From NCBI GenBank assembly GCA_016235065.1, contig JACRMB010000003.1, forward strand, positions 248,001 to 312,000: a stretch of 64,000 bases of DNA, given 5' to 3'. Below are positions 33,578-50,173 of this stretch, piece by piece. Below the pieces are notes generated by a model that did not search any database, had not been told where the DNA came from, and was given only the letters and a program-made list of their open reading frames with translations. The stretch comes from Actinomycetota bacterium (GTDB taxonomy: Bacteria > Actinomycetota > Thermoleophilia > BMS3ABIN01). Position numbers and translations under genes: made by a program. Position 1 is the stretch's first letter. The number at the start of each line of letters is the position of its first letter.

Positions 33578-36500
33578 ATGGCGCCTCTTTTTTCAGGGAA
33601 CCGTGGATTCACGGTTTCTGGATTTGCAAAGCATCTTCTCACTTTATTTTTCCTGATATCGATGTCGCTTCTACAGGCGCTAGATAGCTCTCCGGCATCA
33701 GCCTACTCCGGGCCCCTGAATGTGGATCCGGGCTTCTTTGGCATAAACGCCGAGAGGCCTTTTGAGGATGTTTATAACAGTGATGCGCTCTCTGCCCTGG
33801 AAGAATACAGCGGCAGCTATTCCATCGAAGCAACGGTGAAGATCCGCGAGACCTCCTCGGCGGACGGATCGGCGGGACTGATCTTTCAGTCAGACGCGGA
33901 CAATGATGAATACTGCTACTTTGGCATCTATCCCAACAAAGACAAATGGGAACTGCGTAGACCTGATTTCACGGAACCATTCGAGGGTCAATACGATGTT
34001 GGAATCAACCAGCAGAGCTACAATCTGAAAGCGGATATTGCCGGCGGGTCGATCACCCTTTACATCGACGGGTCTGAAGTTGCTGTATTGAATGAGACCT
34101 CACCTGCCGCGGGAAGAGCTGGTATCAGGATTCGAAGCGCCGATGCTGACTTCAGTAATGTCAGAATAAACGGTGAGCCGCAGACCCTGACCTGCTGGCA
34201 AGCAAACCACGGCGTAGCCTGGACGGGAATCAGTGGCAGTAGCGCCAGGGGTAACGTTCTCCTGGATCCGGCATCGTTAGCCAGCCCCGAACTGTCACCG
34301 GAGCTCGACGCATGGTTCAGAATGATGGATTCCATGGGAGCCAGGTATGTGAACTTCCAGCTTTCCTGGGCGGAAATACAGCCCGAGAGTCCCAGCCAGC
34401 CATATTCATGGCTTTATTCTGATGCGTTTGCCATCGCCGCGAACAGATACAACCTGGATATAGTCCCCAATATGCTTTTTGCTCCCATGTGGGCGGTGAC
34501 GCCTGAATCCCGGAACAGCAGGTTCTACCGGGCATATCCTCCGGTCAATGATGAAGGTGCTTTCGAAACGGCCAGGTTCTCACAATTCGCCACGGCTGCG
34601 GCTGACCGGTATAAAAGGGGGGGCCAGCTCGCGGCCATCATGGGCTGGAGCCAGAACAGCCACGGGCAGGCCGACTTCTTCGAAGTGGGGCCTGAATTCA
34701 ATCTGGGCATTATAAGTGAATGGAAGAACGGCCGCTGGGAGGCGACTAACGCCGGCTGGCTGGGCGACCTTTCGCAATACGTGGATCTCCTGAAAGCAGG
34801 GCGTGATTCTGTGAAGAGCGTCTGCCCGGCATGTCTGGTCCTTAATGGCGGCTCAGCTGATGACTCTATTCCAAATTATTCCATTGGCGATGATCCAGGC
34901 CGCAATGATGGATTCGAACCATATCTTGATGATGTGAGGCTTTGTAATCCCGATGGATCACTGGCCTGGCGGCAGACTGTATGGCAGGGGATCGACGATC
35001 TATATGATGAGATCGAAAGGCGCCCTCCGCCGGATAACACACCGGGCAGATACTTCGACGTGCTTAACATGCATACGTTCATGTGGAAGGGCTACTCCGC
35101 GGAATGGCCGGTCACCGCAGACAGATACGTCAAATGCAGTTATTACTCCAGCGAGTGCTGGCAGAGATGGTACGAAAAGAGGTTCCAGGAGGTCGTCCGG
35201 GTCATGGACGAGCATAACGACCGCAGGGATGTCTGGCTGGGCGAGACCGGTTTTCCCAGCGCCAGGCCTCCAAATGACTCAGTCGGATTCCTGGGGTTCA
35301 TCTCGGAGTACCAGCAGGCGATCGCCCTCCAGACGGTATACTCGGAGGCCGCAAAGTTCCCATCGATAAAAAAAGTATTCTGGTGGCAGGGATATGACAG
35401 TAATTACACCGGCAACCTCGGACTGATCGGGGATGATCGATCTGCAAAAGCAGCCTATGTCAGATATGGGCTGTTGTCCGGGAAAACCGTTGACTCCAGG
35501 TCTGAATATTCTTTCACCTGGTACGACGATTTAGCGGGCGACAACTGGATCCTGATGGCCAACCCTGCCGGGGCGGCTTCGGATTCATGGTTCGATCTGA
35601 CAATAGCTGGTACTGAACGTGACCTCACTGTGATGAACAACGGCAAGGTCCTGGCCGGTCAGACAGCAGCTTCCCGGTTCCCCGGGGTCAGGGGTGGTCC
35701 GGTAAGGGTGGGTAGCCAGTCTCAGGGAAAGGCGCTGGCAAGCCAGCGAATCCTCTGGCCCGCCGGCGGTAACTCGCTGGAAGAGGTGATCGGAGCTGAC
35801 GCTGAAAAGCTCTCCAGCCATTTCTACTGGACCTGGTATGACGAGAAGAGTCCGGGCTTCGTGGACTGGATCATGGTTACCAATCCTGGAGAAGAATCGA
35901 TTCATTATCAGATCAGGGTAGCGAATATCGAGAGGGACAGAGGCACGATCGCCCCGGGAGCGTATGTGACTCCAAGGTTTGCGGGCATCATGGATGGCCC
36001 GGTGGAAGTGGAGGCCTGGGCTGACTCCGTGGGGGGATCCGTTCCTGCCAGGGTTATGGCATCCCAGCGGGTGCTGTCAAATGACGGCCGTTCATTCAAT
36101 GAAGTGCCTGGAATCCCGGAAGAAGAGCTTGGTTCCGTTTACCAGTGGACCTGGTACGATCAGCAGACGCCCGGCGCAGTCAACTGGGTGCTTCTTGCCA
36201 ATCCCGCGAGCAATCTGATGTTTTATCTGCTCGAGGTCGGCGCCGGCGGGTGTGATCAGGATGGCACTCCCAGCGGCCTGGCTGGAACAGCCTGTCAGGC
36301 CGGGGGGCCGGTCGGCGGCGGTCAATATGTATCTGCGGCTTTTCCTGGAATCATGAACGGTCCAGTGACTTTGAAAACCTATTCCGACCCAGGAATGACC
36401 GTCCCGGTGAAATCAGTGGCCTCCCAGCGCTCCCTGTGGGGTCCATCCTTTGAGGAAGTTCCCGGTTTCCCGATCGAGGCGCTAAACAGCAACTATCACT

Positions 36501-36829
36501 GGACCTGGTATGACCAGCAATCTGACGGCGTGTCAAACTGGATACTAATGGCCAATCCCTCCACGGAAGAAGCTATTGACGTGGAAATATGGATGAACGG
36601 TAAGCGGGCGCAGGAGGGAAAAGGACCGAGTACTAACCCGACAACATGGACGCTCACACCTGGACAGACAAGGGTAGCCAGCTTCGGTACCTATATGGGA
36701 GGCCCTGTAGAGGTTCGCGCCTCATTGAGTGGTAATACATGGCCGGCTGGTTCCCGCCCGGTCTTTGCGTCACAGCGGGTACTCTGGAATGGATATTTCA
36801 ACGAGGTATGGGGTACGGCTCTGGATTAA
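33578..36829 (+). CDS. Large secreted protein: LamG-like domain, GH-A type TIM barrel and four WTWYD/ASQR repeats
   Basis: This is a 1083-residue exported protein with a signal peptide ending near PASA-Y (residue 42). Residues about 45-200 form a concanavalin-like sandwich (SIEATVKIRETS..., ITLYIDGSEV). Residues about 205-630 resemble a clan GH-A glycosidase barrel, with a candidate acid/base Glu in VGPEFN and a candidate nucleophile in WLGETG. Residues about 640-1083 are four units of 105-118 residues. Each starts with a YxWTWYD motif, has NWIxMANP and GPVEV, and ends ASQRVL...FNEVPG. The same four-unit module ends the protein at 43172. I do not recognise it as a named family. A polysaccharide-acting or surface-binding role is inferred. 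Confidence 0.8.
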   Translation: MAPLFSGNRGFTVSGFAKHLLTLFFLISMSLLQALDSSPASAYSGPLNVDPGFFGINAERPFEDVYNSDALSALEEYSGSYSIEATVKIRETSSADGSAGLIFQSDADNDEYCYFGIYPNKDKWELRRPDFTEPFEGQYDVGINQQSYNLKADIAGGSITLYIDGSEVAVLNETSPAAGRAGIRIRSADADFSNVRINGEPQTLTCWQANHGVAWTGISGSSARGNVLLDPASLASPELSPELDAWFRMMDSMGARYVNFQLSWAEIQPESPSQPYSWLYSDAFAIAANRYNLDIVPNMLFAPMWAVTPESRNSRFYRAYPPVNDEGAFETARFSQFATAAADRYKRGGQLAAIMGWSQNSHGQADFFEVGPEFNLGIISEWKNGRWEATNAGWLGDLSQYVDLLKAGRDSVKSVCPACLVLNGGSADDSIPNYSIGDDPGRNDGFEPYLDDVRLCNPDGSLAWRQTVWQGIDDLYDEIERRPPPDNTPGRYFDVLNMHTFMWKGYSAEWPVTADRYVKCSYYSSECWQRWYEKRFQEVVRVMDEHNDRRDVWLGETGFPSARPPNDSVGFLGFISEYQQAIALQTVYSEAAKFPSIKKVFWWQGYDSNYTGNLGLIGDDRSAKAAYVRYGLLSGKTVDSRSEYSFTWYDDLAGDNWILMANPAGAASDSWFDLTIAGTERDLTVMNNGKVLAGQTAASRFPGVRGGPVRVGSQSQGKALASQRILWPAGGNSLEEVIGADAEKLSSHFYWTWYDEKSPGFVDWIMVTNPGEESIHYQIRVANIERDRGTIAPGAYVTPRFAGIMDGPVEVEAWADSVGGSVPARVMASQRVLSNDGRSFNEVPGIPEEELGSVYQWTWYDQQTPGAVNWVLLANPASNLMFYLLEVGAGGCDQDGTPSGLAGTACQAGGPVGGGQYVSAAFPGIMNGPVTLKTYSDPGMTVPVKSVASQRSLWGPSFEEVPGFPIEALNSNYHWTWYDQQSDGVSNWILMANPSTEEAIDVEIWMNGKRAQEGKGPSTNPTTWTLTPGQTRVASFGTYMGGPVEVRASLSGNTWPAGSRPVFASQRVLWNGYFNEVWGTALD

Positions 36830-36845
36830 CTGCCCCGCAGGAGTT

Positions 36846-37247
36846 TCACCCCGAGCTTCTGCCGCCTCTTGCGTCAAGCGCTTTCTTGAACAGGAAAAGA
36901 GGCAGGACGACGCCGGCGATCAGCGCGCAGAGCCAAACGATCAGGCTTGCCAGCAACCAGGTGCTGATGCCGCTGATGTTAAGGCCATCTGAAAGTGTAT
37001 CCGTCACCAGGAGCCCGACAAATGTCGTCACCAGGGCGACGCCTCCGGTCAGGGCTGGCAGGTTCTTGAGCGAGATCGAGATGAGCAGGGGACCTGCCAC
37101 AACCTCCACGGCGGTGAAGATCAGGGTCGCGGTCACGAATGCGGTCGGGTCGATTGTGAATTCCGGACTGAGGATCAGATCGGCCATTATCAGGCCCACT
37201 GCGTTGGCTATCAGATGCAGGCAGGCGCTTGCCAGCAAACGGATCAA
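36846..37247 (-). CDS. Small four-helix membrane protein (holin-family-like)
   Basis: The start is taken at TTG 37247, with AGAGGAGG upstream at good spacing; a GTG at 37325 would add a polar N-terminus. The 133-residue product has four hydrophobic helices, ends KKALDARGGR, and looks like the mycobacterial-type four-TM superfamily. No catalytic motif is seen. Convergent with the large secreted protein (17-bp gap). Function unknown; no phage genes are nearby, so a holin role is not supported. Confidence 0.6.
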   Translation of the reverse strand: MIRLLASACLHLIANAVGLIMADLILSPEFTIDPTAFVTATLIFTAVEVVAGPLLISISLKNLPALTGGVALVTTFVGLLVTDTLSDGLNISGISTWLLASLIVWLCALIAGVVLPLFLFKKALDARGGRSSG

Positions 37248-37459
37248 GATGGCCTCCTCTTCAGTCGTGGCTGGTAATTCCGAAGTGCTATCCGCCAGGG
37301 TGAAGCAGTGCACCTCACTTCTCACTGGTTATCCCCCGCTGGCAGGATGTTAAGCCTGGCGCAGGGCGGCATCCGCTGGTTTTTTATTTCGCGGCCACGG
37401 GTAGATTCCTGTTATCCCGGACTGCGGAGTGCGAGCGTTCCGGCAACAGGAGGTGCAGA

Positions 37460-37816
37460 ATGCTGGAGAAGATGAAAGAGAGCCGCGGCAATATAGTCGG
37501 CTTCAAGGCAATCGGGACGATCAGGCCGCCGGACTACGACGAGCTGGTTCCCATGTTCGAAAAGCTGGTCTGGGAGGAAGGCACCCTCAGGGTGCTAATG
37601 GATCTCAGCGAGTTCAGGTCAGAGTCGCCCAGCGCCTGGAAGGCCGATCTGAACTTCGGCCGGGAGTTCCACCAGAAGATCGAGAAGCTGGCGATAGTAG
37701 GGGACAAGCATTGGGAAAAGTGGCTGGCCGACTTCTGCGCCCCTTTCTATGCCCGCGAAGCCCGCTATTTTCATACCGACGATATCATCGCCGCCTGGGA
37801 TTGGTTGCGAAAATAG
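37460..37816 (+). CDS. SpoIIAA-like (STAS-fold) protein
   Basis: This 118-residue protein begins MLEKMKESRGNIVGFKAIG with AGGAGG upstream. The sequence LRVLMDLSEF and KLAIVGDKHWEKWLADFCAPFY matches the SpoIIAA-like family (PF11964), which has a STAS-related fold. Members bind lipid or partner proteins, and some act as stress-linked regulators; the exact role is not known. It stands alone between a minus-strand membrane protein and a minus-strand lipoprotein. Confidence 0.85.
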   Translation: MLEKMKESRGNIVGFKAIGTIRPPDYDELVPMFEKLVWEEGTLRVLMDLSEFRSESPSAWKADLNFGREFHQKIEKLAIVGDKHWEKWLADFCAPFYAREARYFHTDDIIAAWDWLRK

Positions 37817-37841
37817 GCCGGCAACTAGTGGCCGCTGCTCT

Positions 37842-38750
37842 TCAGCTGGTAGTTCTAATCTCCGAAGGAAACTGTTCGACCAGCTCTGAAAGATCATCGA
37901 CCCTATGTTCCAGCGCCCTGCTATCTCTCAATATCTCTTTTCCCAGAGGATCGAGGATTTCGTTCAAAGCCTCGAGTTCTCCATCGCTTAAATCCACAGA
38001 CTGTTTGTAAGCTTTGTCAACCGCCGCATTATCCCAGTTGGAATAAGCATCTATGTATGCCTGCGTCGCAGAAGCCATTCCGACAGTATGAGAAACAAGT
38101 TTGTCCAGGGACTGCTGCAGGGAATGCGGCACCTTTATTGACCTGTAGTCATCAGCATATTTTTCGTATTTTGACTTTACGTCAGAATATATGGTTGTAA
38201 GCTCGGTGGGATCTTCAACAATCGATGGAACATATATGGTGTTTATTTCATTGATCTGGTCCTTGCGGATGTTTTTTAATGCCATGACCAAAAGGAAAGC
38301 CGCCCTGGCTTTCTGCAACGAACTGACCGCGTCCGCGCGGTTATCCAGGACAGCCTGGTTACGCTCTGCGCATACCGAACACTCGCTGGGCGGCTCTGGA
38401 AGTGACGGGTCCGCGGAAAGATCAGCGATTGCTTCATCAATCGAAGACAAAGTATTGTCTATGTCTTCCTGGGTGGCCCTTTTTTCGTGGTCCGGGTCGA
38501 CTGATTCCAAACCTGGATAGACCGTCGTAGCCTCGACACTCACGAACGAAAGGGAATCAGAAAGCGCTATTGCTCCTCGCTGGAGTTGCTTTTTCGATTC
38601 AGTGACCTTGGCGATGAAGTCTGGGTAGAATGCTTCTTCCGGGGAAGGTGTTTGGCTGCATCCGTTCAAAAATCCACCAAAAAAGATGATGAAAAAAATT
38701 ATCAGTACGATCGGGATGGAAAACGGAAATTTCCTCGCAGTGAATTGCAT
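37842..38750 (-). CDS. Lipoprotein of unknown function with helical domain
   Basis: This 302-residue exported protein has a long hydrophobic signal region and a lipobox FLNGC (Cys31). The rest is almost wholly helical and acidic, with a CSVC pair near residue 125. Long heptad-like stretches occur (AFYPDFIAKVTESKKQLQRG, VDDLSELVEQFPSEI). It could form an extracytoplasmic coiled coil or a four-helix bundle similar to sensor input domains. I recognise no family. The base composition is lower in GC than its neighbours, with AT-rich flanks, which may point to recent acquisition. Confidence 0.65.
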   Translation of the reverse strand: MQFTARKFPFSIPIVLIIFFIIFFGGFLNGCSQTPSPEEAFYPDFIAKVTESKKQLQRGAIALSDSLSFVSVEATTVYPGLESVDPDHEKRATQEDIDNTLSSIDEAIADLSADPSLPEPPSECSVCAERNQAVLDNRADAVSSLQKARAAFLLVMALKNIRKDQINEINTIYVPSIVEDPTELTTIYSDVKSKYEKYADDYRSIKVPHSLQQSLDKLVSHTVGMASATQAYIDAYSNWDNAAVDKAYKQSVDLSDGELEALNEILDPLGKEILRDSRALEHRVDDLSELVEQFPSEIRTTS

Positions 38751-38848
38751 GCGGCGATACTATCACGGATAGGATGAATATTTTTTATTTTTAAATGAAA
38801 AATTGCGCATTCGTGACCGGAAGTTTCAATTCTCAGATGAAAATAATC

Positions 38849-39664
38849 CTATGGCTTCATGCCGACCGCATAGATGACCCCGACCTCCAGCTTGATTCCG
38901 TCGGCGGTCCTCAGTGCCCCGACCTCCTGTAAATGCTCTGTGCGGAAGCGCTCCCGGTCCTCGTCGGTCATCTGGTCCACAAGGCGCCGGAACCCGGCGT
39001 TCCAGATGATATCCCACCATTCGTCGGTGCTGTCCAGAAAGTAACCGACGTTATCCATCTCGATCCAGACATCCTCGATGCCGGCGGACCCGAACAGATG
39101 ACGGCACCCTTCTTCCGAGGCGATCCGCTTCCAGCCAGGTTCAGGCGGCTCGACGCCGTAGCGTTTGAGACGCTGGTTGAACATCCCGGTCAGGGGCTGG
39201 AACAGGTTCTCCTGAAAACCCGATATCGCGACCTTGCCCCCGGCTCTGACCTTCGAGGCCATGTGTGCGAGCTGGCCGGCCATGTCCTCAACGAAGAAGA
39301 TGCCGAACGAGCAGACCGCGGCGTCGAATGAGCCATCGGGGAATTCCAGAGACTGCATGTCCATCTCGATGAACTCGACGTTGCTGACATGCATGTCGGT
39401 CGCCTTGAGCTGAGCCTGCTCGATCATGCCGCCGGCAAAATCCACGCCGGTGACCCGTCCTTCAGGCAGGCGCCTGGCGATCGCGAAAGCCGCGTGACCG
39501 GTACCGGTCGCCACGTCGAGCACATGCTCGCCGCCGCCGAGATCCAGATGATCGGCAAGCAGGGTGGCGCTGTTGGGGAAGAACCGCAGCGCCTCGCCAT
39601 CATAGCCTTCGGCCACGGTGTCGAACGTTTCCCGGAGGAGGGCCTTTTTTGACTGATCGTCCAA
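38849..39664 (-). CDS. UbiE/COQ5-like SAM-dependent methyltransferase
   Basis: The start is placed at TTG 39664 (GAGGG 5 bp upstream); a longer reading frame back to 39976 exists but runs through the next gene and is not family-like. The 271-residue protein has motif I VLDVATGTGHAAFAIA, GVDFAGGMIEQAQ and later EFIEMDMQSLEFPDGSFDAAVC. This is the class I methyltransferase signature seen in UbiE-type enzymes. The substrate is unknown. It is next to a SnoaL-like protein, and together they could act on a small aromatic or polyketide-like molecule, though that is only inference. Confidence 0.82.
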   Translation of the reverse strand: MDDQSKKALLRETFDTVAEGYDGEALRFFPNSATLLADHLDLGGGEHVLDVATGTGHAAFAIARRLPEGRVTGVDFAGGMIEQAQLKATDMHVSNVEFIEMDMQSLEFPDGSFDAAVCSFGIFFVEDMAGQLAHMASKVRAGGKVAISGFQENLFQPLTGMFNQRLKRYGVEPPEPGWKRIASEEGCRHLFGSAGIEDVWIEMDNVGYFLDSTDEWWDIIWNAGFRRLVDQMTDEDRERFRTEHLQEVGALRTADGIKLEVGVIYAVGMKP

Positions 39665-39740
39665 AGTGCCCTCATTATATGATACTGAGGAAAATGAGGG
39701 AAAGAGCGACGAATCGTCATCCAGGGGACCGCGAGTCTGG

Positions 39741-40202
39741 CTATCCGTCGAGATACAGCGAACTGCCGCCGGGGTATTCCACATGGGGCTCGATGCCGCC
39801 GAGCTGCGCCAGCAGGCCCATGGTATCAGTGACTCCCCAATGCTCCTGGATGACGCCGTCGTTGAACCGGATCTCATCCATGGAGTCAAAGTAGATATGC
39901 TTGCCGGTCGCCTCGATGCCGGCGAACTCATTCTGGTGAGTCCCTTCCCACCGGCAGCGCATGAAGACCTTCTCACCTTCGGCGACCATGTCTTCGATGC
40001 TGACCCTGATGTCAGGAAATGCCGTTCTGAAGACCTTCACCAGTTCCTTGATGCCGGTGCGCCCGGCAGGCTTCTGATCGCCGAAATCCTCATGGTCCTG
40101 GATACCGGAGTCAAGCAGCTCATCAACCAGTTCGAGGTTCCCGTTGCCGTAGACTTCCTCGAGGTAGCGCCGGGCGGTATCCTTGTTGGCTTCCGATGAC
40201 AT
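39741..40202 (-). CDS. SnoaL-like ester cyclase family protein
   Basis: This 153-residue NTF2-fold protein begins MSSEANKDTARRYLEEVYG and has the family core GNLELVDELLDSG, VFRTAFPDIRVSIEDMVAEG and VFMRCRWEGTHQNEFAGI. The last region matches the SnoaL_2/ester cyclase (PF07366) pattern. Such proteins include polyketide cyclases and small ligand-binding enzymes, and many bacterial members have no known reaction. It precedes the methyltransferase gene on the same strand with a gap of about 75 bp. Confidence 0.85.
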   Translation of the reverse strand: MSSEANKDTARRYLEEVYGNGNLELVDELLDSGIQDHEDFGDQKPAGRTGIKELVKVFRTAFPDIRVSIEDMVAEGEKVFMRCRWEGTHQNEFAGIEATGKHIYFDSMDEIRFNDGVIQEHWGVTDTMGLLAQLGGIEPHVEYPGGSSLYLDG

Positions 40203-40339
40203 GAAGCGCCTCCCTTTCGTTCTGTGATTGCGGACGTCAATGATCGACTATCTCACAATACCCGGTTAAGGGGAGGATTTAACCGAAGCCGGATCACAAC
40301 CGCATGCACCTCGGGATTTTTAGTCTTATGGCGCCGGAC

Positions 40340-40912
40340 TTACCGTCTCATGGCGCCAGCTGCCGGGCTGCTTCCGGTTTGTGGTGCGCCGCTGCCCATC
40401 GTTCCCGGGTGAGGACCGGTTCCGGTGCCGCCGCCCATCGTGCCAGGCGAGTAGGTTCCTGCATCACCAGCAGGTCCCATAGTGCCCGGATCCATGTAAC
40501 CGGTACCACCGGTTCCAGGGCCCATATCAGCGGGATCCATATATCCGGTTCCCGTGCCCGAATCTCCTGTCTGCATGCCATAGCCGGGCGTGCCATAAGC
40601 AGGTCCCATCCCTGCTGGCTGCTGCATGTGGCTGGCGGCTTCGACCTGCGCGGCATGGGCTCTCATCTGGCCGGCGGCAAGGGCAAAGTGATCCGCCATG
40701 GTCCCACTGGAACCTGGCATGGTCGAACCAGTCGCAGCACGGCCGGCCGTAGCTGTATCACCGCCTTGCAGGCTTCCCGGATGGGTGGCTACATCGAGCC
40801 TGTGGCCGTAACCGCCATCCATATAGCCGGACTCCCTCGCGGAAGCCAGGCTGCCTGCAGCCAGCAGCAAAACCGCGGAGATTATAATTATTGATGTGAC
40901 TCTGAATATCAT
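40340..40912 (-). CDS. Exported Gly/Met-rich repeat protein
   Basis: The start at ATG 40912 follows GGAAGGTG. The 190-residue precursor has a signal peptide (LLLAAGSLASA), a helical middle with several His and Met (FALAAGQMRAHAAQVEAASH), and then a low-complexity C-terminal half. That half is made of repeats like GTGYMDPADMGPGTG and TYSPGTMGGGTG. No known domain is seen. Met-, His- and Gly-rich exported proteins often bind copper or act as cell-wall fillers. It is downstream of a shorter similar gene on the same strand, separated by a strong terminator. Confidence 0.6.
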   Translation of the reverse strand: MIFRVTSIIIISAVLLLAAGSLASARESGYMDGGYGHRLDVATHPGSLQGGDTATAGRAATGSTMPGSSGTMADHFALAAGQMRAHAAQVEAASHMQQPAGMGPAYGTPGYGMQTGDSGTGTGYMDPADMGPGTGGTGYMDPGTMGPAGDAGTYSPGTMGGGTGTGPHPGTMGSGAPQTGSSPAAGAMRR

Positions 40913-40943
40913 CTGAACACCTTCCGTTGCATTCCACATATGA

Positions 40944-40967
40944 AAAGCGGCCCGAATGGGCCGCTTT
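40944..40967 (-). terminator. Rho-independent terminator after the Met-rich gene
   Basis: AAAGCGGCCC and GGGCCGCTTT form a perfect 10-bp stem over a four-base loop. Read on the minus strand it is followed by TTTTCAT, fitting termination of the gene at 40978-41304. Confidence 0.85.
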
Positions 40968-40977
40968 CGGTCTACGT

Positions 40978-41304
40978 TCAGCGGGTGGCGGTAGTGGCGG
41001 TATCCCTGCAGATATTCGCCATCTCGTCCCAGTTGCCGGTATTCATGGCGTCACGCATACGGTCACGATTCTCAGTCGTCATGTGGGTGCCATTGCCCAT
41101 CATGCCGTTACCATCTGTTCCGTTCATCATGCCGGGGCCATGGGTGCCTGAGCCCGTGCCACCCATCATGCCGGGGCCATAAGTGCCGCCTGACCCGCCC
41201 ATCATGCCGCCGCCGAACGGGGTGTTTCCCTGTGCGAGGACTGCGCTGGCACCTACAAGGAGGATGATGAGCGCGGTTACGCCGATTATTGTTAATCTGG
41301 ACAT
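40978..41304 (-). CDS. Small exported Met/Gly/His-rich protein
   Basis: The start is ATG 41304 with a GGGAGCAG ribosome site. The 108-residue precursor has a signal peptide cleaved after VLA (residue 24). The mature part has repeats such as GGGMMGGSGG and GPGMMGGTGS, with Met pairs and scattered His. It ends with a conserved-looking helical tail, NRDRMRDAMNTGNWDEMANIC. That tail resembles the end of small copper-responsive exported proteins of soil bacteria. Metal binding, perhaps copper, is plausible from composition but untested. Confidence 0.65.
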   Translation of the reverse strand: MSRLTIIGVTALIILLVGASAVLAQGNTPFGGGMMGGSGGTYGPGMMGGTGSGTHGPGMMNGTDGNGMMGNGTHMTTENRDRMRDAMNTGNWDEMANICRDTATTATR

Positions 41305-41530
41305 TATTCTGCTCCCTTCTGAGCATTCGTTTATATGATCATTATCGCCAGTTATCATTAAGGGAAGGTGTCGCAAATATGATGTTTTCGTGAAGATTGG
41401 GGCGAGATTATCAGGGCATTCCCCGCAGGTTTAATCAGGGCATATCCCCATAGTTTCGTGACTATTTGCCTGCTAGATTCTATATTCCAGGGTACAGCTG
41501 AGACTCAATCTACTTTCTGGAGCGGGAAAA

Positions 41531-42019
41531 ATGACTGATTTCGATGTGGGCAACGATCTAATCTCCAGTATGGCTACCATGGATAAACGGGTTCCGGGCA
41601 AGGACCAGAGCAAGGACCAGGACCAGGGTGCGACGCATCTGAGTTACCTGGGGCGTGGGCTGCTGGAGATCCTCGACGCGCTCCCCTTCTACGTCCTGCT
41701 GATCGATAAGAACCATCGCATATTGCTGGCCAATAAAGCCACGCTTGATGTTTTGGGGAAGGAAGCGAGTGAGATCGTCGGTCAGGCATGCCCGCGGGTG
41801 GTTCACGGCCTGCATCACGGATCTTATCAGGGATGCCCTCTAGAACAGGCTGTATCGACCAACGAAGCCGTCGAGTGGGAACACTTTGACGACAACTCAG
41901 GGCGATGGCTGAAAACGGCTGTCTATCCCACGGCGGTCAAGTCTATCGATGGTCAGGGAGTCTATTTCCATATGGTGCAGGATATCACCGAGCAAAAAGA
42001 GGCATTGGGGGAAGCTTAG
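41531..42019 (+). CDS. Single PAS-domain protein with Cys/His motif
   Basis: This 162-residue cytoplasmic protein has a charged N-terminus (KDQSKDQDQG) and one PAS domain (about residues 48-155), with ILDALPFYVLLIDKNHRILLANKATL and VKSIDGQGVYFHMVQDITEQ. Inside the PAS fold it has CPRVVHGLHHGSYQGCPLEQ, a Cys-x4-His...Cys arrangement common in PAS domains of anaerobes and suggestive of metal or heme binding. No output domain is fused, so it may pair with another signalling protein. A strong terminator follows. Confidence 0.82.
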   Translation: MTDFDVGNDLISSMATMDKRVPGKDQSKDQDQGATHLSYLGRGLLEILDALPFYVLLIDKNHRILLANKATLDVLGKEASEIVGQACPRVVHGLHHGSYQGCPLEQAVSTNEAVEWEHFDDNSGRWLKTAVYPTAVKSIDGQGVYFHMVQDITEQKEALGEA

Positions 42020-42055
42020 CCGGGGAATAGAACAAACGGAGAAAACGCAATATTA

Positions 42056-42084
42056 TTAAACCGCTCATGGCGGTTTAATTTTTT
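42056..42084 (+). terminator. Rho-independent terminator after the PAS gene
   Basis: TTAAACCGC (42056-42064) and GCGGTTTAA (42070-42078) form a nine-pair stem followed by a run of six T. It separates the PAS gene from the flavin reductase gene. Confidence 0.9.
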
Positions 42085-42099
42085 GAAGGGAGTAGCTTG

Positions 42100-42666
42100 A
42101 TGAAAAAATCTCTGGGCGCCAAGACCATAGCGTTTCCCGTGCCAGCCTGGGCCATCGGCACTTATGACGACGAAGGCAAACCAAACGTCATGACCGCCGC
42201 CTGGACCGGCATCTGCTGCTCGCGGCCGCCCAGCATGGCGGTTTCGCTGCGCGAGGCGACCTCATCCCACGGAAACCTGGTGGCTCGCAAGGCTTTTACC
42301 ATCAGCATCCCTTCAGAAGAACAGGTGCGAGAGATCGATTACATCGGCGTCGTCTCCGGCCGCGACCGTGACAAGTTCGCAGACCTGGGCCTCACTGCCG
42401 CCCGCGCCGAGCACGTCGACGCTCCATATATCGAGGAGTTCCCGGTGATTATCGAATGCAGGCTGACACACACGGTCGAGCTCGGCCTGCATACGCACTT
42501 CATCGGCGAGATCATGGACGTCAAGGCCGATGAGGCGGTCCTCGATGAAAAAGGGCAGCCGGAATCGGCTAAAGTAAGGCCGGTTGTCTTCGGCCCCGGC
42601 GACCGTTCCTATCATGGTCTCGGCGCGTACCTTGGGCGCGCGTTCTCGATCGGGCGCAAGAAGTAG
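42100..42666 (+). CDS. Flavin reductase-like protein
   Basis: This 188-residue FMN-binding split-barrel protein has GAKTIAFPVPAWAIGTYDDE, NVMTAAWTGICCSRPPSMAV and FTISIPSEEQVREIDYIGVV, as in the flavin reductase-like (PF01613) family. It is expected to bind FMN and reduce it or another acceptor with NAD(P)H in the cytoplasm. The ATG at 42100 has AAGGGAG upstream. The CC pair near residue 39 is typical of one bacterial subgroup found in anaerobes. Nearby genes give no partner. Confidence 0.88.
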   Translation: MKKSLGAKTIAFPVPAWAIGTYDDEGKPNVMTAAWTGICCSRPPSMAVSLREATSSHGNLVARKAFTISIPSEEQVREIDYIGVVSGRDRDKFADLGLTAARAEHVDAPYIEEFPVIIECRLTHTVELGLHTHFIGEIMDVKADEAVLDEKGQPESAKVRPVVFGPGDRSYHGLGAYLGRAFSIGRKK

Positions 42667-42762
42667 CATGACTCCTGCCTCTTCCCCAGTTTAAGTATTT
42701 TACAATGGGGAATACCTTCTCGCGGCATATTACGAAAATGAAACTTATCAAGGAGTCTCATT

Positions 42763-43161
42763 ATGGCTGCCGGGGACGGAAAAAGCTGGAAGATATTCGG
42801 CATCGTAGTCATCGCTCTGGTGATAGCCGGAGGAATCGCCGCAGCGGCCTTTTTCATCGGCAGGGGCTGTGAGGGGGAAGATGAAAAAGCGAAGACGACC
42901 ACGACCCGGACCCAGCCTGCCGATACTGCTCCCGCGCCCGCGGATGTAGCGCCGGACGAGCCCGCCGCAGCCGGAACCGACGCCGGCGCTGACGAAGCGC
43001 CTGCTGCGCCAACCGAAACCACGGCGACAACCGAGCGCTATGTCACCGGCGAGGCCGAGGGATCGACACCCTGCACAGGCGGTTTCCAGACGACGACCCG
43101 CACTACCTACTGGAGCGATGGTTCCACGGATACCGTGACCGTCACCGAGCCCTGTCCTTAG
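42763..43161 (+). CDS. Single-pass membrane protein with Thr/Pro/Ala-rich linker
   Basis: This 132-residue protein has one membrane helix (about residues 12-33), followed by a Cys, an acidic stretch and a long Ala/Pro/Thr/Asp linker of about 55 residues. It ends in a small beta-rich tail with two Cys (STPCTGG... and TEPCP), likely a disulfide. It looks like a cell-wall-spanning stalk. The next gene, a large secreted repeat protein, starts 10 bp later, so the two may work together at the cell surface. Function unknown. Confidence 0.7.
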   Translation: MAAGDGKSWKIFGIVVIALVIAGGIAAAAFFIGRGCEGEDEKAKTTTTRTQPADTAPAPADVAPDEPAAAGTDAGADEAPAAPTETTATTERYVTGEAEGSTPCTGGFQTTTRTTYWSDGSTDTVTVTEPCP

Positions 43162-43171
43162 TGCTTCGGTT

Positions 43172-45442
43172 ATGAGCGCCGTTAACCATCCTGCTCCGGC
43201 CTTTTTCCCCTCGATGTTGCGCCTGCTGTTGTTCTGTCTCACGGCGGTGTTCACATTACTGATTCTCACCCACACGGCCTTAGCTGCCGCGCCCTACACC
43301 ATCAGCGACAACGCAACTGGTGAAGACTGCACCCAGATCGGTGCCTGGGACAATGTAACCAAGACCTGCACGCTCAATCAGGACATCCCGATCAGCGGCA
43401 GCATCAACGCGATCACCATAAACAGCAACAGTATCACCCTGGATGGGGCCGGTTTTACGATCAGCGGTGCTGATGCCGGCAACGGCGTCATGGTGACCGG
43501 CATGACCGCGGTCAGCGTCCGGAATCTGAACCTCAGTCATCTCTTCACCGGGATTTACTACGATGCTGGCTCCAGCGGCACGATCAGCTATAACGGCCTG
43601 TCAAACAATGCTTACGGCATATACCTGAACGACACAAACCTGAATACAGTCTCACACAATGATGTGTTCGCGAGCAGTATCGATCAGATCGCGATCACGG
43701 GCACTTCTATCGCCAATATCATCGATTCCAATTTTGTGATGAACAGCACTGCGGAGGCCGGAATCGGCTTATATGCTTCCAGCAACATAATCAGATACAA
43801 CGTGATCTCCAACAACAGCGCCACAACAAAAGCTGGTATCTATATAACTGGCTCCTCCAACACGGTCTTCAACAATACGATTTCCAACAATAGCGTGGGG
43901 CTCGGATTATGGAGCAGCTCGAACGGCAACGCGATCTACAACAACAATTTCCTGAATAACACGATGCAGGCAGGAGGCACCGGCACGGGCAATACCTTCA
44001 ACCAGCCGGCGCCTGTCGGGGGTAACTACTGGTCGGAGCATGCCACGGCTTCCCAGGGATGTGTTAACGCGGATAACGACAGGTTCTGCGATGCTCCCTA
44101 TACACCGCCCTTTTCCGGTGTGACCGACAATCTGCCCCTTGCCCGCCGCGGTTATTACTTCACCTGGTATGACATGGCCTCCGCGGGGGCTCAGGACTGG
44201 GTAATGATGGCAAATCCCATCGAGGCCGCCGGTGAGGACGCCTGGTTCGACCTGTCGATCGCCGGCGTGCCGCAGACACTGCCGACGATCAGCCAGATCC
44301 CGGGTCAGGTGCCGCCTCTGGGAGCGATCACGCCCACCTATCCCGGCACTATGAACGGACCGGTCGACGTGGGTTATCACGCCCGCATGCGGACCATGGT
44401 CAGTCAGAGGATCCTCTGGGGGAATTCACTCGAGGAGGTGGTGGGAACAGACGCCGCTCGTCTTTCTGACCACTACTACTGGACCTGGTATGACCAGTCG
44501 AGCCCCGGCTTCAGCAACTGGATCATGGTAGGCAATCCTTCAGCTACAGACACGGTGAGGGTGGATCTGAGTTTCAGGGATGTAGGCACTGGTCTGGATG
44601 TCACGGATTTCCAGGTAATCAGCCCCGGTGGCCGCTGGACGCCGGCTTATCCGGGCAAGATGGGCGGCCCGGTGGAGATCAAGGCATATATCCAGGGCGG
44701 CAGCTGGAGCAATCCCGGCGACCGCCGCGATGTCGTCGCTTCCCAGCGGGTGCTGAGTAACGGCGGAACCGCCTTTAACGAAGTTCCCGGAATTCTCGCG
44801 GAAGAGCTGACCGACCGCTATATGTGGACCTGGTATGACAACGTCTACGGCCAGAACTGGATCATGATCGCCAACCCGCCCGACAGCGGCTACAACATGG
44901 ATTATTCCATCTTCATCCACGGGGTGGGTGCGGGCGGCGGCACTGACCTGGCGCCGGGGCAGACCGCCACCGCGATGATCCCGGGAACGGTGGACGGTCC
45001 CGTGGAGGTCCTGACCGTCCGGCACAGTTCGGGGATACCACTGAACTCGGTCGTCTCGCAGCGTACGCTCTGGGGGCCGTCGTTTGAGGAAGTGCCGGGC
45101 TTCCCTTATTCGTCGCTGTCGTCGCTCTACTACTGGACCTGGTATGACCAGCAGTCGGCCGGCGTATCAAACTGGGTGCAGGTTGCGAATCCGGATGGAG
45201 TGAACCAGCTTCATTACGAGATCACCATCGCGGGGCAGGATCCGGCGCCAGGCCCGACCTGCAGCAAAGGCACGCTCGACGCCGGCGCCGTGCTGAATTG
45301 CCAGTTCCAGGGCACGATGGACGGCCCGGTCAAGGTGCAGGCCTGGAACCTGATCAAGACAGCCCCCATGGATATAGTCGCATCTCAGCGCGTCCTCTGG
45401 AATGGATACTTCAACGAGGTGATGGGGACCGAGTTGAGCTGA
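43172..45442 (+). CDS. Secreted beta-helix protein with four WTWYD/ASQR repeats
   Basis: This 756-residue exported protein has a signal peptide ending near LAAA-P (residue 40). Residues about 42-320 form a right-handed parallel beta-helix of the NosD/pectate-lyase type (NSITLDGAGFTISGADAGNG, NIIRYNVISNNSATTKAGIY and similar rungs). Residues about 325-756 are four tandem units starting YYFTWYD or YYWTWYD and ending SQR[IVT]L. These match unit by unit the C-terminal part of the 1083-residue protein at 33578. The last unit ends WNGYFNEVMG at the C-terminus, as in the other protein. Glycan binding or hydrolysis at the cell surface is inferred. No catalytic residues can be named. Confidence 0.8.
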   Translation: MSAVNHPAPAFFPSMLRLLLFCLTAVFTLLILTHTALAAAPYTISDNATGEDCTQIGAWDNVTKTCTLNQDIPISGSINAITINSNSITLDGAGFTISGADAGNGVMVTGMTAVSVRNLNLSHLFTGIYYDAGSSGTISYNGLSNNAYGIYLNDTNLNTVSHNDVFASSIDQIAITGTSIANIIDSNFVMNSTAEAGIGLYASSNIIRYNVISNNSATTKAGIYITGSSNTVFNNTISNNSVGLGLWSSSNGNAIYNNNFLNNTMQAGGTGTGNTFNQPAPVGGNYWSEHATASQGCVNADNDRFCDAPYTPPFSGVTDNLPLARRGYYFTWYDMASAGAQDWVMMANPIEAAGEDAWFDLSIAGVPQTLPTISQIPGQVPPLGAITPTYPGTMNGPVDVGYHARMRTMVSQRILWGNSLEEVVGTDAARLSDHYYWTWYDQSSPGFSNWIMVGNPSATDTVRVDLSFRDVGTGLDVTDFQVISPGGRWTPAYPGKMGGPVEIKAYIQGGSWSNPGDRRDVVASQRVLSNGGTAFNEVPGILAEELTDRYMWTWYDNVYGQNWIMIANPPDSGYNMDYSIFIHGVGAGGGTDLAPGQTATAMIPGTVDGPVEVLTVRHSSGIPLNSVVSQRTLWGPSFEEVPGFPYSSLSSLYYWTWYDQQSAGVSNWVQVANPDGVNQLHYEITIAGQDPAPGPTCSKGTLDAGAVLNCQFQGTMDGPVKVQAWNLIKTAPMDIVASQRVLWNGYFNEVMGTELS

Positions 45443-46595: not shown

Positions 46596-46707
46596 AATGT
46601 ATCCCCAAAATTACCAATTAATTAATGTATCCCGCAAAGTTCCCAATGTATCCCCTTAATTGCCAATTAAGTAATGTGTCCCCCTGAAGTTCGTCCCCCT
46701 GAAGTTC
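46596..46707. repeat. Short repeat cluster AATGTATCCCC plus tandem 15-mer at the selB 3' end
   Basis: AATGTATCCC or a one-base variant occurs at 46596, 46624, 46645 and 46673, spaced 21-28 bp. It runs into two exact tandem copies of GTCCCCCTGAAGTTC at 46678-46692 and 46693-46707. The last part encodes the C-terminal residues of SelB. Confidence 0.75.
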
Positions 46708-48625
46708 CGGTTTTACGTAAAACCCGGTAATCACCCTCACGCCGCGTCAGCCCCGTCCGGTCGAAATATTCCAGCAGCGCCTGGGCGAACTTGCGGCTGA
46801 CGTCGAGCATGTCCCGCAACTCCGCCAGGGTGATCTGGCCGGTGTCATTACAGCGGGCGAGCACGGCTTCACGTGCTATCTCGACCGGCTCCGGAGCGTA
46901 GTAAAGGTCGGGTTTCACCTTGACTGCGCGCTCGTCCTCCACCAGAAGCTTCAGCACCAGCTTGAAATCCTGGTCGCCGGTGCGGGCGCCGACTGCCGTG
47001 GCGATGTCGCCGAGCGATGGCGGGGACATTCCCGCTTCTTCAAGACGGGCGGCGATGTCTTCCATCATCTTCTGTTGCGCGTCTGACAGCCGCGCAACCG
47101 CGGAGGCCATCGAATATCGCTGCTCCTTGACGGTCACGAGGCCGCTGTTGACTGTCCCTGCGAGCAGCGCCTGGAATGGACGGTCAGTTGCATCCATATC
47201 CACACTTTTGGCTATCTCCTCGGCGCTCAGGGCCGGGTCGGCGGGGTCGGATTGCTGCCGCGCTTCGAGAGTCGCCTCAAGCCGCAGGCCGAAGTCGTTG
47301 ACAGCCTGGGGGGCGAAGAAGACTTCGCTACCGGAAGCGACAAGCGAGACTGCGACTGCAGCGTCGGCAAGAGCAGTAGAGATCGACTCGCCGGAAAGCA
47401 GCCCGGTCGCCTCGATCTCCTCAAGCGGGAGTCCGCCTGGCCTCGCTTCTTCCAGCAGCAGTGAGACGATATCCGCCGGCACACCTTTCTCCAGCACCTC
47501 GAGACGCTGCACCTGGCCTTCCCCCTTGCCGTGTTTGTGCGGATGGGGGTCGATCACCACGCCGCCGCCGATAGTAGTCACCGGACTCAGCGATCTGATG
47601 ATGAAGCGGTCGCCTTTCACCGGCACGATCTTGGTCTTAAGCCTCACCTGGGCATAACAGGTCTCCTCTGGCGCCAGCCGGTCGCGGTCGGCGAACATGA
47701 GTTTGGCGGTGGCGTCGGCGGTGCCGTGATGGAAGCGCACCTGGGCTCCGTACTTGAGCGCGCGAGCAGTCGGCAGCAGGGTCAGCCGGGCGTCGACCAT
47801 GTACGTGGGTTCGAGCCCCTCACCCTTGAGCACCATCTGCCCGCGTTCCAGCCGGTCCTTGTCGATTCCGGAAAGATTGATCGCTACTCGCTGACCCGCC
47901 TCGGCGCACTCGACGCTGCGGTCATGTACCTGCACGGTGCGGGCCCGGCAAGGCAGGCCTTCGGGCATCAGGCGCAGGGAATCCTCGGCGCAGATCCGTC
48001 CCGACCAGAGGGTGCCGGTGACCACGGTACCGATCCCCTTGAGGGTGAAGACCCGGTCGACCGGCAGGCGGGCGGCGCCGCTGGCCTCGTGCGCCTCGTG
48101 CGCTCGGCCGGCCGCTTCTTCCAGCAGGCCCAGTAACAGCGGGATGCCCTCGCCGGTCTTGGAGCTGACCCCGGTCATGGGGGCATCCGCGTATGGCGTC
48201 GCCGCCAGGAAATCTTCGATGTCCGCCTGAACCAGCTCCAGCATCTCCTCGTCCACCAGGTCGGTCTTGGTGATGGCGATGATGCCCTGGGGGATGCCCA
48301 GCATCTCGATGATGGCCATGTGCTCGCGGGTCTGGGGCATGACGCCGTCGTCAGCGGCGACCACCAGCATGAAGATGTCGATGCCGCTGGCGCCTGCGAC
48401 CATGTTGCGGACGAAGCGTTCGTGGCCGGGCACGTCGATGACGCTCATGGTGGTGCCAGAGGGAAGCTCGAGCTCGGCGTAGCCCAGCTCGATGGAGATG
48501 CCTCGCTCCTTCTCCTCGGCGAGGCGGTCGGTGTCGGTGCCGGTGAGCGCCTTGATCAGCGCCGTCTTGCCGTGGTCGATGTGGCCGGCGGTGCCGAGGA
48601 CCAGGTGTCGGGGAACGTTATCCAA
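46667..48625 (-). CDS. selB: Selenocysteine-specific elongation factor SelB
   Basis: This 652-residue GTPase starts at TTG 48625. G1 is GHIDHGKT (residues 14-21), G3 is DVPGHE and G4 is TKTD, with the effector region [14 protein letters not shown] as in SelB. Domains II-III follow, and the C-terminal winged helices (about residues 400-640) bind the SECIS hairpin. It carries Sec-tRNA to the ribosome at UGA codons. The final residues, [12 protein letters not shown], are encoded by a tandem 15-bp repeat and are probably not functional. It lies 54 bp after selA and before selC. Confidence 0.95.
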
Positions 48626-48679
48626 CTGTGCTGAGGATCATTTGCCGGGGTGTGATATCCAGGATACTTCTCAAGAGAT

Positions 48680-50173
48680 TCAGTCGGATGTGGAAGGTGG
48701 CGAAGCCGGAGTCTGAAAAGCCTGCGCGAATGAGTCGGCGATCAGCGGCAGCTGCTCAGGAAGTACCGTCCGTGCATCGAGCAGCAACCGCTCCTTGTGG
48801 ATGCGGCCGATCACTGGCGGGTCGGTCTCGCGCAGCCGGGCTGCCAGTTCGTCGACGGTAATAGTAGCCGGGCTCACGGCGCAGACGTAAGAATCAAGTT
48901 CCAGCAGAGGCAGGGCGCCACCGCCGACTTTCGAGGTGGCCCTTTCGACCTCTATCGTCGCGAGGCCTACGGCAGATGCATCCTCCTTATCGCTCTTTCC
49001 ACCTTCACCTGATGAGGTGATGCCAATCGCGTCCCGTAAGCCTGCGGCCATCTCCTCCGCCCGCGCCTTCAGCACCTCCAGCGGTTCATTCAGCATCCTC
49101 AAAGTGGGGATCCGCTCCAGCGCCACTTCCGGCTTCAAATACAGCGCCAGCGTCGCCTGCAATGCGGCAAGCGTCATCTTGTCCACCCGCAGCGCCCGCG
49201 CCAGAGGATGGGCTTTCATCTTCTCGATGTATTCTTTCCTGCCGACGATGATGCCGGCCTGGGGTCCGCCCAGCAGCTTGTCGCCGCTGAAGGTGACCAC
49301 ATCGGCGCCGGCGGCCAGGCTGTCGTGCACTGAAGGCTCGCCGGCCAGCGCCGGCATCTCCGCCAGCACGCCACTGCCCAGGTCGTCGACGACCACCAGC
49401 CCGCGCTCATGCCCCAGCCGCGCCAGCTCGGCGATGTCCACCTCGGCGGTGAAGCCCACCACCTTGTAGTTGCTGGTATGCACATGCAGGAGCATGGTGG
49501 TATCCGGCCCGATCGCCTTTTCATAATCTGAAATCTTTGTTTTGTTAGTGGTGCCGACCTCGACCATTTTCGCCGCGCTCGAAGCCATGATGTCGGGGAT
49601 GCGGAAAGAGCCGCCTATCTCGACCAGTTCGCCTCGCGAGACTATAACCTCGTGGCCGCTGCCGAAAACCGCCAGGGCCAGGAAGACCGCAGCCGCGTTA
49701 TTGTTCACGACCAGGGCGCCCTCGGCGCCGGTGAGCGCCATAATGATGCGATTGATGTGGTCGTGACGGGAACCCCGGGCGCCTGCCTCGAGGTTGTATT
49801 CAAGATTTGAGTAGGATGCCGCTGCGCGGACCACAGCTTCGATGGCCTCCGGCGCCAGCACCGAACGGCCCAGGTTCGTGTGGACCACGACGCCGGTGGC
49901 GTTCACCAGGGTCTTCAGGCTGGGGAGGAAGACGTTTGCGGCCTCGTCGGCGATCTGCTTGGCGAGGTCCGTTGCCGCCTCACCCTTTCCCGACAGGATT
50001 CCTTTTCGCATCCGCTCCAGAACGATCCGGGCCGAATCCACCACCAGCTCACGGCCGTAATCGCCCATAGCCGCCGTCAGCTCCGGCGCCTCGATAAGTT
50101 CTTCCACAGAGGGCAACGCCCGCAGCGCTTCTGACTGCTGCTGGCTCAGTGTGCCTTTTTTACCACCAGCCAT
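48680..50173 (-). CDS. selA: L-seryl-tRNA(Sec) selenium transferase SelA
   Basis: This 497-residue PLP enzyme has the N-terminal helical region with [13 protein letters not shown], then [28 protein letters not shown] and the PLP Lys in [13 protein letters not shown] (Lys299). It converts Ser-tRNA(Sec) to Sec-tRNA(Sec) using selenophosphate. A Gly/Ser/Lys-rich insert near residue 405 ([12 protein letters not shown]) is not catalytic. selD for selenophosphate is not in the window. The gene begins 3 bp after a small conserved-looking gene at 50177, so they form one unit. Confidence 0.95.

Follow-up and report, generated by a model that had tools for sequence, protein, structure and literature searches.

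The analysed window is a 64,000-nucleotide stretch of contig JACRMB010000003.1 from an Actinomycetota bacterium assigned to the Thermoleophilia (assembly GCA_016235065.1). It contains two genes for large exported proteins that end in a common module of four repeated units, referred to below as the WTWYD module. Both open reading frames, first pointed out in a sequence-only reading of the window, were confirmed on the forward strand (+), which also carries their domains and units, at positions 33578-36829 (protein 1, P0001; 1083 aa) and 43172-45442 (protein 2, P0002; 756 aa). Protein 1 is composed of (i) an export-type N-terminus, (ii) a weak LamG-like domain (about 33809-34105), (iii) a barrel-like region and (iv) the module (35513-36826). 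Protein 2 has a signal-type N-terminus, followed by a right-handed beta-helix of the NosD type (residues 91-289; 43442-44038) and the module (residues 329-756; 44159-45439). Of the N-terminal domains originally proposed, the beta-helix is solid (Pfam, E 4.6e-27), whereas the LamG-like domain is a sub-threshold Pfam match (E 5e-4) and the supposed glycosidase-like barrel gave no Pfam hit.

The units were delimited by splitting the modules at TWYD. Those of protein 1 comprise 105, 106, 118 and 109 aa (35513-35827, 35828-36145, 36146-36499 and 36500-36826, respectively), and those of protein 2 comprise 107, 115, 103 and 102 aa (44159-44479, 44480-44824, 44825-45133 and 45134-45439). In each case the last unit is also the end of the protein. 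The units of both proteins align end to end, and the two modules share 44% identity over 459 columns, i.e. over their whole length (E = 3e-109), which is far beyond chance and bears out the claim that the same C-terminal module is present on both proteins. Each unit shows the same order of motifs, [FW]TWYD - NW(I/V)xxANP - GGPVxV - (A/V)SQRxL - FNEVxG, in which W-Y-D, W, G-P, R and E are nearly invariant at all four unit positions.

Copy number, inheritance and distribution of the module

Module copies were counted in the source genome (2.37 Mb, ten contigs) by a search, and by applying a profile of the eight window units to the retrieved stretches. The profile detected units in 30 proteins: 28 carried four units, and two, which resemble two-unit forms, carried fewer than four in that scan. 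The initial mention of two module proteins was thus correct for both, but understated their number. The last unit forms the C-terminal end in 26 of the 28 four-unit proteins, the exceptions being a protein with similarity to multicopper oxidases, in which the module spans residues 174-582, and a short protein that continues for 114 aa beyond the module. One protein (L014:1498-2937) consists of a signal segment and the module only, with no cargo.

When the complete open frames of this genome and its relatives were pooled (n = 123), 114 contained four units, two contained eight (2 x 4) and seven contained one to three. A lenient re-scan of the exceptions indicated that L114 and L115 are probably frame-broken copies and L163 probably a truncated one. 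L033, L034 and L116 are genuine two-unit proteins; in L034 a third unit is also matched, but very weakly. Intact forms with only two units are rare, and the original statement that there are exactly four units holds for the 114 frames, plus the two with 2 x 4. The eight-unit forms represent a doubled four-unit module, which agrees with four as the functional number. Proteins of this type (L084:1686-5537, L086:3-4391 and L209:4320-7022) carry two four-unit modules in direct or near tandem. Several module genes of the relatives contain one in-frame stop or are split by a frameshift (e.g. G013:C26:7181-8419 and G008:C31:1214-2431); these may be either decaying copies or assembly errors. We also observed a recurrent gene pair, in which a short protein (signal, four units and a conserved tail of ~112 aa) is encoded directly upstream of a larger module protein (L028:3191-9028, with similar arrangements in L073, L075, L089, L091 and L103). 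The downstream partner is of the YCF48-propeller type in the source genome and of a different type in L091 and L103.

The sequence-only reading had noted that the units of the two window proteins match by position, and this observation could be extended to the whole family. For 168 of the 192 units from 48 four-unit modules, the nearest unit in another protein occupied the same position (permuted mean 48, maximum 70), and a tree version of the test gave 169/192. This indicates that the four positions were already distinct before the family spread and that the module was copied whole. As judged from these comparisons, the four units appear to constitute one inherited module and not loose repeats. 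It had further been proposed that the module is swapped between enzymes. In 62 of 99 proteins, the nearest module from a different genome was joined to a homologous N-terminal part, against 7.9 expected by chance; most module-cargo fusions are therefore old and inherited jointly, although some exchange is possible. The proposal is thus right only in part, and wrong where recent swapping is meant.

In a sample of 60 genomes, module matches were found in 17, all from one family, and none in the other families of the class that the sample covered. Most of the 17 matching genomes contain 9-30 copies each. Single matches were detected in each of three genomes of one genus (G001, G004, G005), and none in two genomes of another genus of the same family (G011, G014). 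Copy number thus falls within the family from about 20-30 to one or none, a contrast that may be useful in finding the ligand or co-inherited genes. Among 249 genomes of the class, the sole genome outside the family with a match was G373 (76% complete, 5% contamination). Its two frames (735 and 1762 aa) are equal in length to those of G002, and the match was rejected as a true occurrence outside the family, since it probably reflects contamination. A genome-collection search run with a subset of 12 modules gave named matches in metagenome-assembled genomes labelled Thermoleophilia, Actinomycetes, Gaiellales or simply bacterium. Within the class, strong matches are limited to a single family.

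Predicted structure and kinship to DUF5719

The module of protein 2 (428 residues; alignment with 59 other rows) was modelled using AlphaFold2, with a pLDDT of 94.9 and a pTM of 0.92, values which indicate a confident prediction of the units themselves and of how they are placed relative to one another. Unit 3 of the same protein, modelled alone as positions 44813-45121 (86 rows), also gave a confident model (pLDDT 96.7, pTM 0.87) with eight strands. Each unit is thus predicted to be an autonomous eight-strand beta-sandwich, the four forming one confident assembly. The expected beta-rich character is upheld by these models, which describe an ordered assembly and not disordered repeats.

The same models led us to reject the four-bladed propeller suggested in the sequence-only reading. 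The module resembles hemopexin-type four-bladed beta-propellers in having four beta-rich repeats, but a propeller blade is a four-stranded sheet that is not expected to close alone, whereas the lone unit is predicted to fold as a complete, closed eight-strand domain. With the whole module as query, Foldseek matched only rows of sandwich domains in the PDB (complement MG domains and FN3; query TM < 0.2), and no propeller was among the leading matches. With the single unit, no match was obtained at E <= 0.001; the better ones, all weak (TM about 0.4-0.55), were to lectin (LecB-type), CBM35 and PA14 domains, these with E above 0.01, and to GOLD and subtilisin jelly-roll domains. Packing of unit 4 against unit 1 was additionally analysed by mean-field residue coupling in 135 modules; held-out tests were at noise level, and many of the coupled pairs were equivalent positions in different repeats, which is a known artefact of repeat proteins.

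An assembly of beta-sandwiches with confident mutual placement is also what would be predicted if four Ig-like domains formed a rigid stalk or spacer with the passive role of placing or stabilising the cargo, and Big-type Ig linkers are indeed present on many of the cargo proteins. Stalks, however, usually vary in repeat number and sit between domains, whereas this module is fixed at four units, each position with its own conserved signature, and is usually C-terminal. A stalk with a free end would, moreover, need another element to hold it, and none was recognised. We consider such a role unlikely.

That the module belongs to no named family, as initially supposed, was supported by searches of Pfam, NCBIfam and PDB sequences in which single proteins as well as the full set of 28 modules served as queries: no family covering the module was found, and the hits were scattered, weak and mutually inconsistent. 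An NCBIfam match to 'Class F sortase' (best E 3e-6, three members) was treated as a chance similarity. In the two copies that matched on re-scan, neither of them the best-scoring member, it is a stretch of ~40 residues with 16-18 bits against a cut-off of 166. The Pfam model of DUF5719 (PF18986), a domain of unknown function, gave no match at or above its gathering score of 26.2 bits in P0001 or P0002, and none was listed for the 28 modules. Nor was a PF18986 match found in the genomes of 60 relatives, although the control genomes of that search likewise gave none.

Nevertheless, several observations link the module to DUF5719. The module profile gave weak but repeated matches in other families of the phylum (E down to 1e-10), and inspection of 20 of these stretches showed WYLAEG-type repeats (WYLAEG...QNPG...VCERAMYW...GHDSIG). 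The PF18986 model does match such distant relatives (8/8 scanned, E down to 3e-31). In a comparison of unit profiles by hhalign, the WTWYD unit and the DUF5719-type unit were matched with a probability of 96.2% (E 2.7e-9), while reversed and column-shuffled controls remained below 1%. The two types share the order of motifs, and four is the usual number of repeats in both (15 of 20 complete frames of the DUF5719-type relatives); the DUF5719-type repeats are often located near the C-terminus of C39-like, NlpC/P60 and M23 proteins. They differ in their signatures, i.e. WTWYD, GGPV, SQR and FNEV in the module versus WYLAEG, DVST, ERAMYW and GHDSIG in the DUF5719 type, and no module reaches the Pfam model. 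The WTWYD module is therefore an undescribed, remote branch of the DUF5719 superfamily of other Actinomycetota families. This kinship would supply a functional hypothesis for a widespread domain of unknown function. In the DUF5719-type relatives (L122-L141), several stretches that overlap one another match the PF18986 model (319 positions); the actual unit of four repeats may not be represented by this model. No paper on DUF5719, PF18986 or WTWYD was found in the literature library searched. While tandem-repeat surface modules on varied cargo are already known as a kind, the domain family and its build of four sandwiches are undescribed in the sources searched.

Cargo and putative role of the module

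The proteins carrying the module in the source genome include (i) two M23 peptidases, (ii) two glucosaminidase-like proteins, (iii) an M4 thermolysin, (iv) a CAP protein, (v) two GH26-like proteins, (vi) three beta-helix proteins, protein 2 among them, and (vii) several propeller-type proteins; Big-type Ig linkers are numerous. The module is present on both glucosaminidase-like proteins and on two of the four M23 peptidases encoded in this genome. Among 89 relatives, the cargo comprised YCF48-type propellers (14), NosD (8), M4 (7), Amidase_2 (5), glucosaminidase (4), kumamolisin-type (3), CAP (2) and M23 (2) domains. In L109 a SpoIID domain lies C-terminal to the module (L109:5294-6190), and tails of about 300 aa in L063, L080, L086 and L054 look similar to it in both sequence and position.

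A hydropathy scan revealed an N-terminal hydrophobic segment in 28 of the 30 module proteins of the genome. One of the other two is protein 1, whose N-terminal segment is signal-like, yet falls below the threshold; the second (L021:6951-11000) is cut by the locus edge. In the same 30 proteins, hydropathy and pattern scans detected no later or C-terminal membrane segment and no LPxTG-like motif. Matches to two known non-covalent anchors, CWB2 (PF04122) and SLH (PF00395), were likewise absent from the genome, while the control searches gave CWB2 matches in B. subtilis and SLH matches in four genomes.

The observations directly supported by the data are the four-unit architecture, a genome-wide family, the C-terminal position, export-type N-termini, the types of cargo and the lack of a second recognisable anchor. 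The occurrence of one fixed, mostly C-terminal module on many exported proteins with no other recognisable anchor and with recurrent wall-acting cargo suggests that the module serves as a non-covalent cell-envelope anchor for varied exported proteins, a reading that we favour with some reservation. The four beta-sandwich domains would have one fixed arrangement and be passed on together as a single module, and this assembly would retain the exported protein at the cell exterior by non-covalent binding to a polymer of the cell's own envelope, possibly an envelope glycan or a secondary wall polymer. The variable cargo (cell-wall hydrolase, protease, beta-helix or propeller) would then act on the wall or face outward. 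Consistent with an anchor are the presence in a single 2.37 Mb genome of 28 paralogues that share the fixed module but differ in cargo, the wall enzymes found as cargo here and in the relatives (Amidase_2, glucosaminidase, M23, SpoIID), the rigid predicted assembly (pTM 0.92) and the lectin- and CBM-type folds among the weak unit matches. The fixed number of units and their positional identity argue for one functional unit. The surface-anchor or glycan-binding role proposed in the sequence-only reading is thus still the best description of a module that joins so many unrelated secreted domains.

Modules of this kind have precedents. SLH domains are a repeated surface-anchoring module found on varied exported proteins and consist of short domains in threes; they differ from the present module, in which each unit is all beta. 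In C. difficile, 29 wall proteins carry three tandem CWB2 repeats, which may lie at either end, and their cargo includes glucosaminidases and proteases; all of the repeats are needed for anchoring, and the ligand is a wall polymer (PMC4973711). The likeness to the CWB2 proteins extends to a fixed number of tandem repeats, either terminal position, about 30 paralogues per genome, and wall hydrolases and proteases as cargo. The comparison concerns the mode of working only, since CWB2 is built from an unrelated domain with three repeats instead of four. If it is an anchor, the WTWYD module would join SLH and CWB2 as a further, unrelated means of attaching proteins to the wall non-covalently. A tentative extension, for which we see rather less than an even chance, is that the module represents a novel type of non-covalent envelope anchor whose ligand is specific to the lineage, and that the whole DUF5719 superfamily, which occurs in several Actinomycetota families, is likewise built from four units and has this function too.

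Several points weigh against the anchor role. The fold matches of the unit are weak (TM at most 0.55, none at E <= 0.001). Three sortases are encoded in the genome, and another anchoring route therefore exists. No second anchor was recognised on the module proteins, but LysM and other wall-binding domains were not searched for genome-wide. Finally, cargo of the protease, GH26-like and propeller types would also suit proteins that are freely secreted or act in a matrix.

The presence of GH26-like, beta-helix and possible glycosidase cargo, together with the weak resemblance of the unit fold to LecB-type lectins, CBM35 and PA14, could point to a carbohydrate-binding module by which secreted enzymes are targeted to external glycans, in the extracellular matrix or on a foreign polysaccharide, instead of the cell's own envelope. 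Since the module also occurs on peptidoglycan hydrolases, propellers and a CAP protein, or alone behind a signal segment, a single external substrate is improbable, and we give this explanation a low probability.

Its C-terminal position and the end conserved in most copies might instead suggest a sorting signal recognised by a machinery devoted to secretion or attachment, in a role like that of the C-terminal domain of type IX secretion. At 428 residues in four domains the module is, however, very large for such a signal, in some copies it precedes the cargo or lies within it, and the proteins have ordinary export-type N-termini; such a function is highly improbable. Little more probable is a self-assembling surface layer, in which the modules of different proteins would tile into a common lattice. 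The high copy number per genome, the stand-alone module protein and the recurrent pair of a module-plus-tail protein and a second module protein would agree with a lattice, but no dominant copy was identified.

The exported proteome of a whole family of uncultured Actinomycetota is in large part marked by a single undescribed module (9-30 proteins per genome in most members), and naming it would make that exported proteome readable from any genome.

Genes next to the window proteins

The neighbours of the two window genes encode a PLP-dependent decarboxylase, a methyltransferase, a PAS protein, a flavin reductase and SelA/SelB. These genes are unrelated and have no pathway in common, and an operon logic for the two module genes was therefore rejected. 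The SelB and SelA genes are adjacent (46667-50173, - strand), which probably reflects selenoprotein synthesis by this organism. In-frame TGA codons of the genome thus need to be treated with care.

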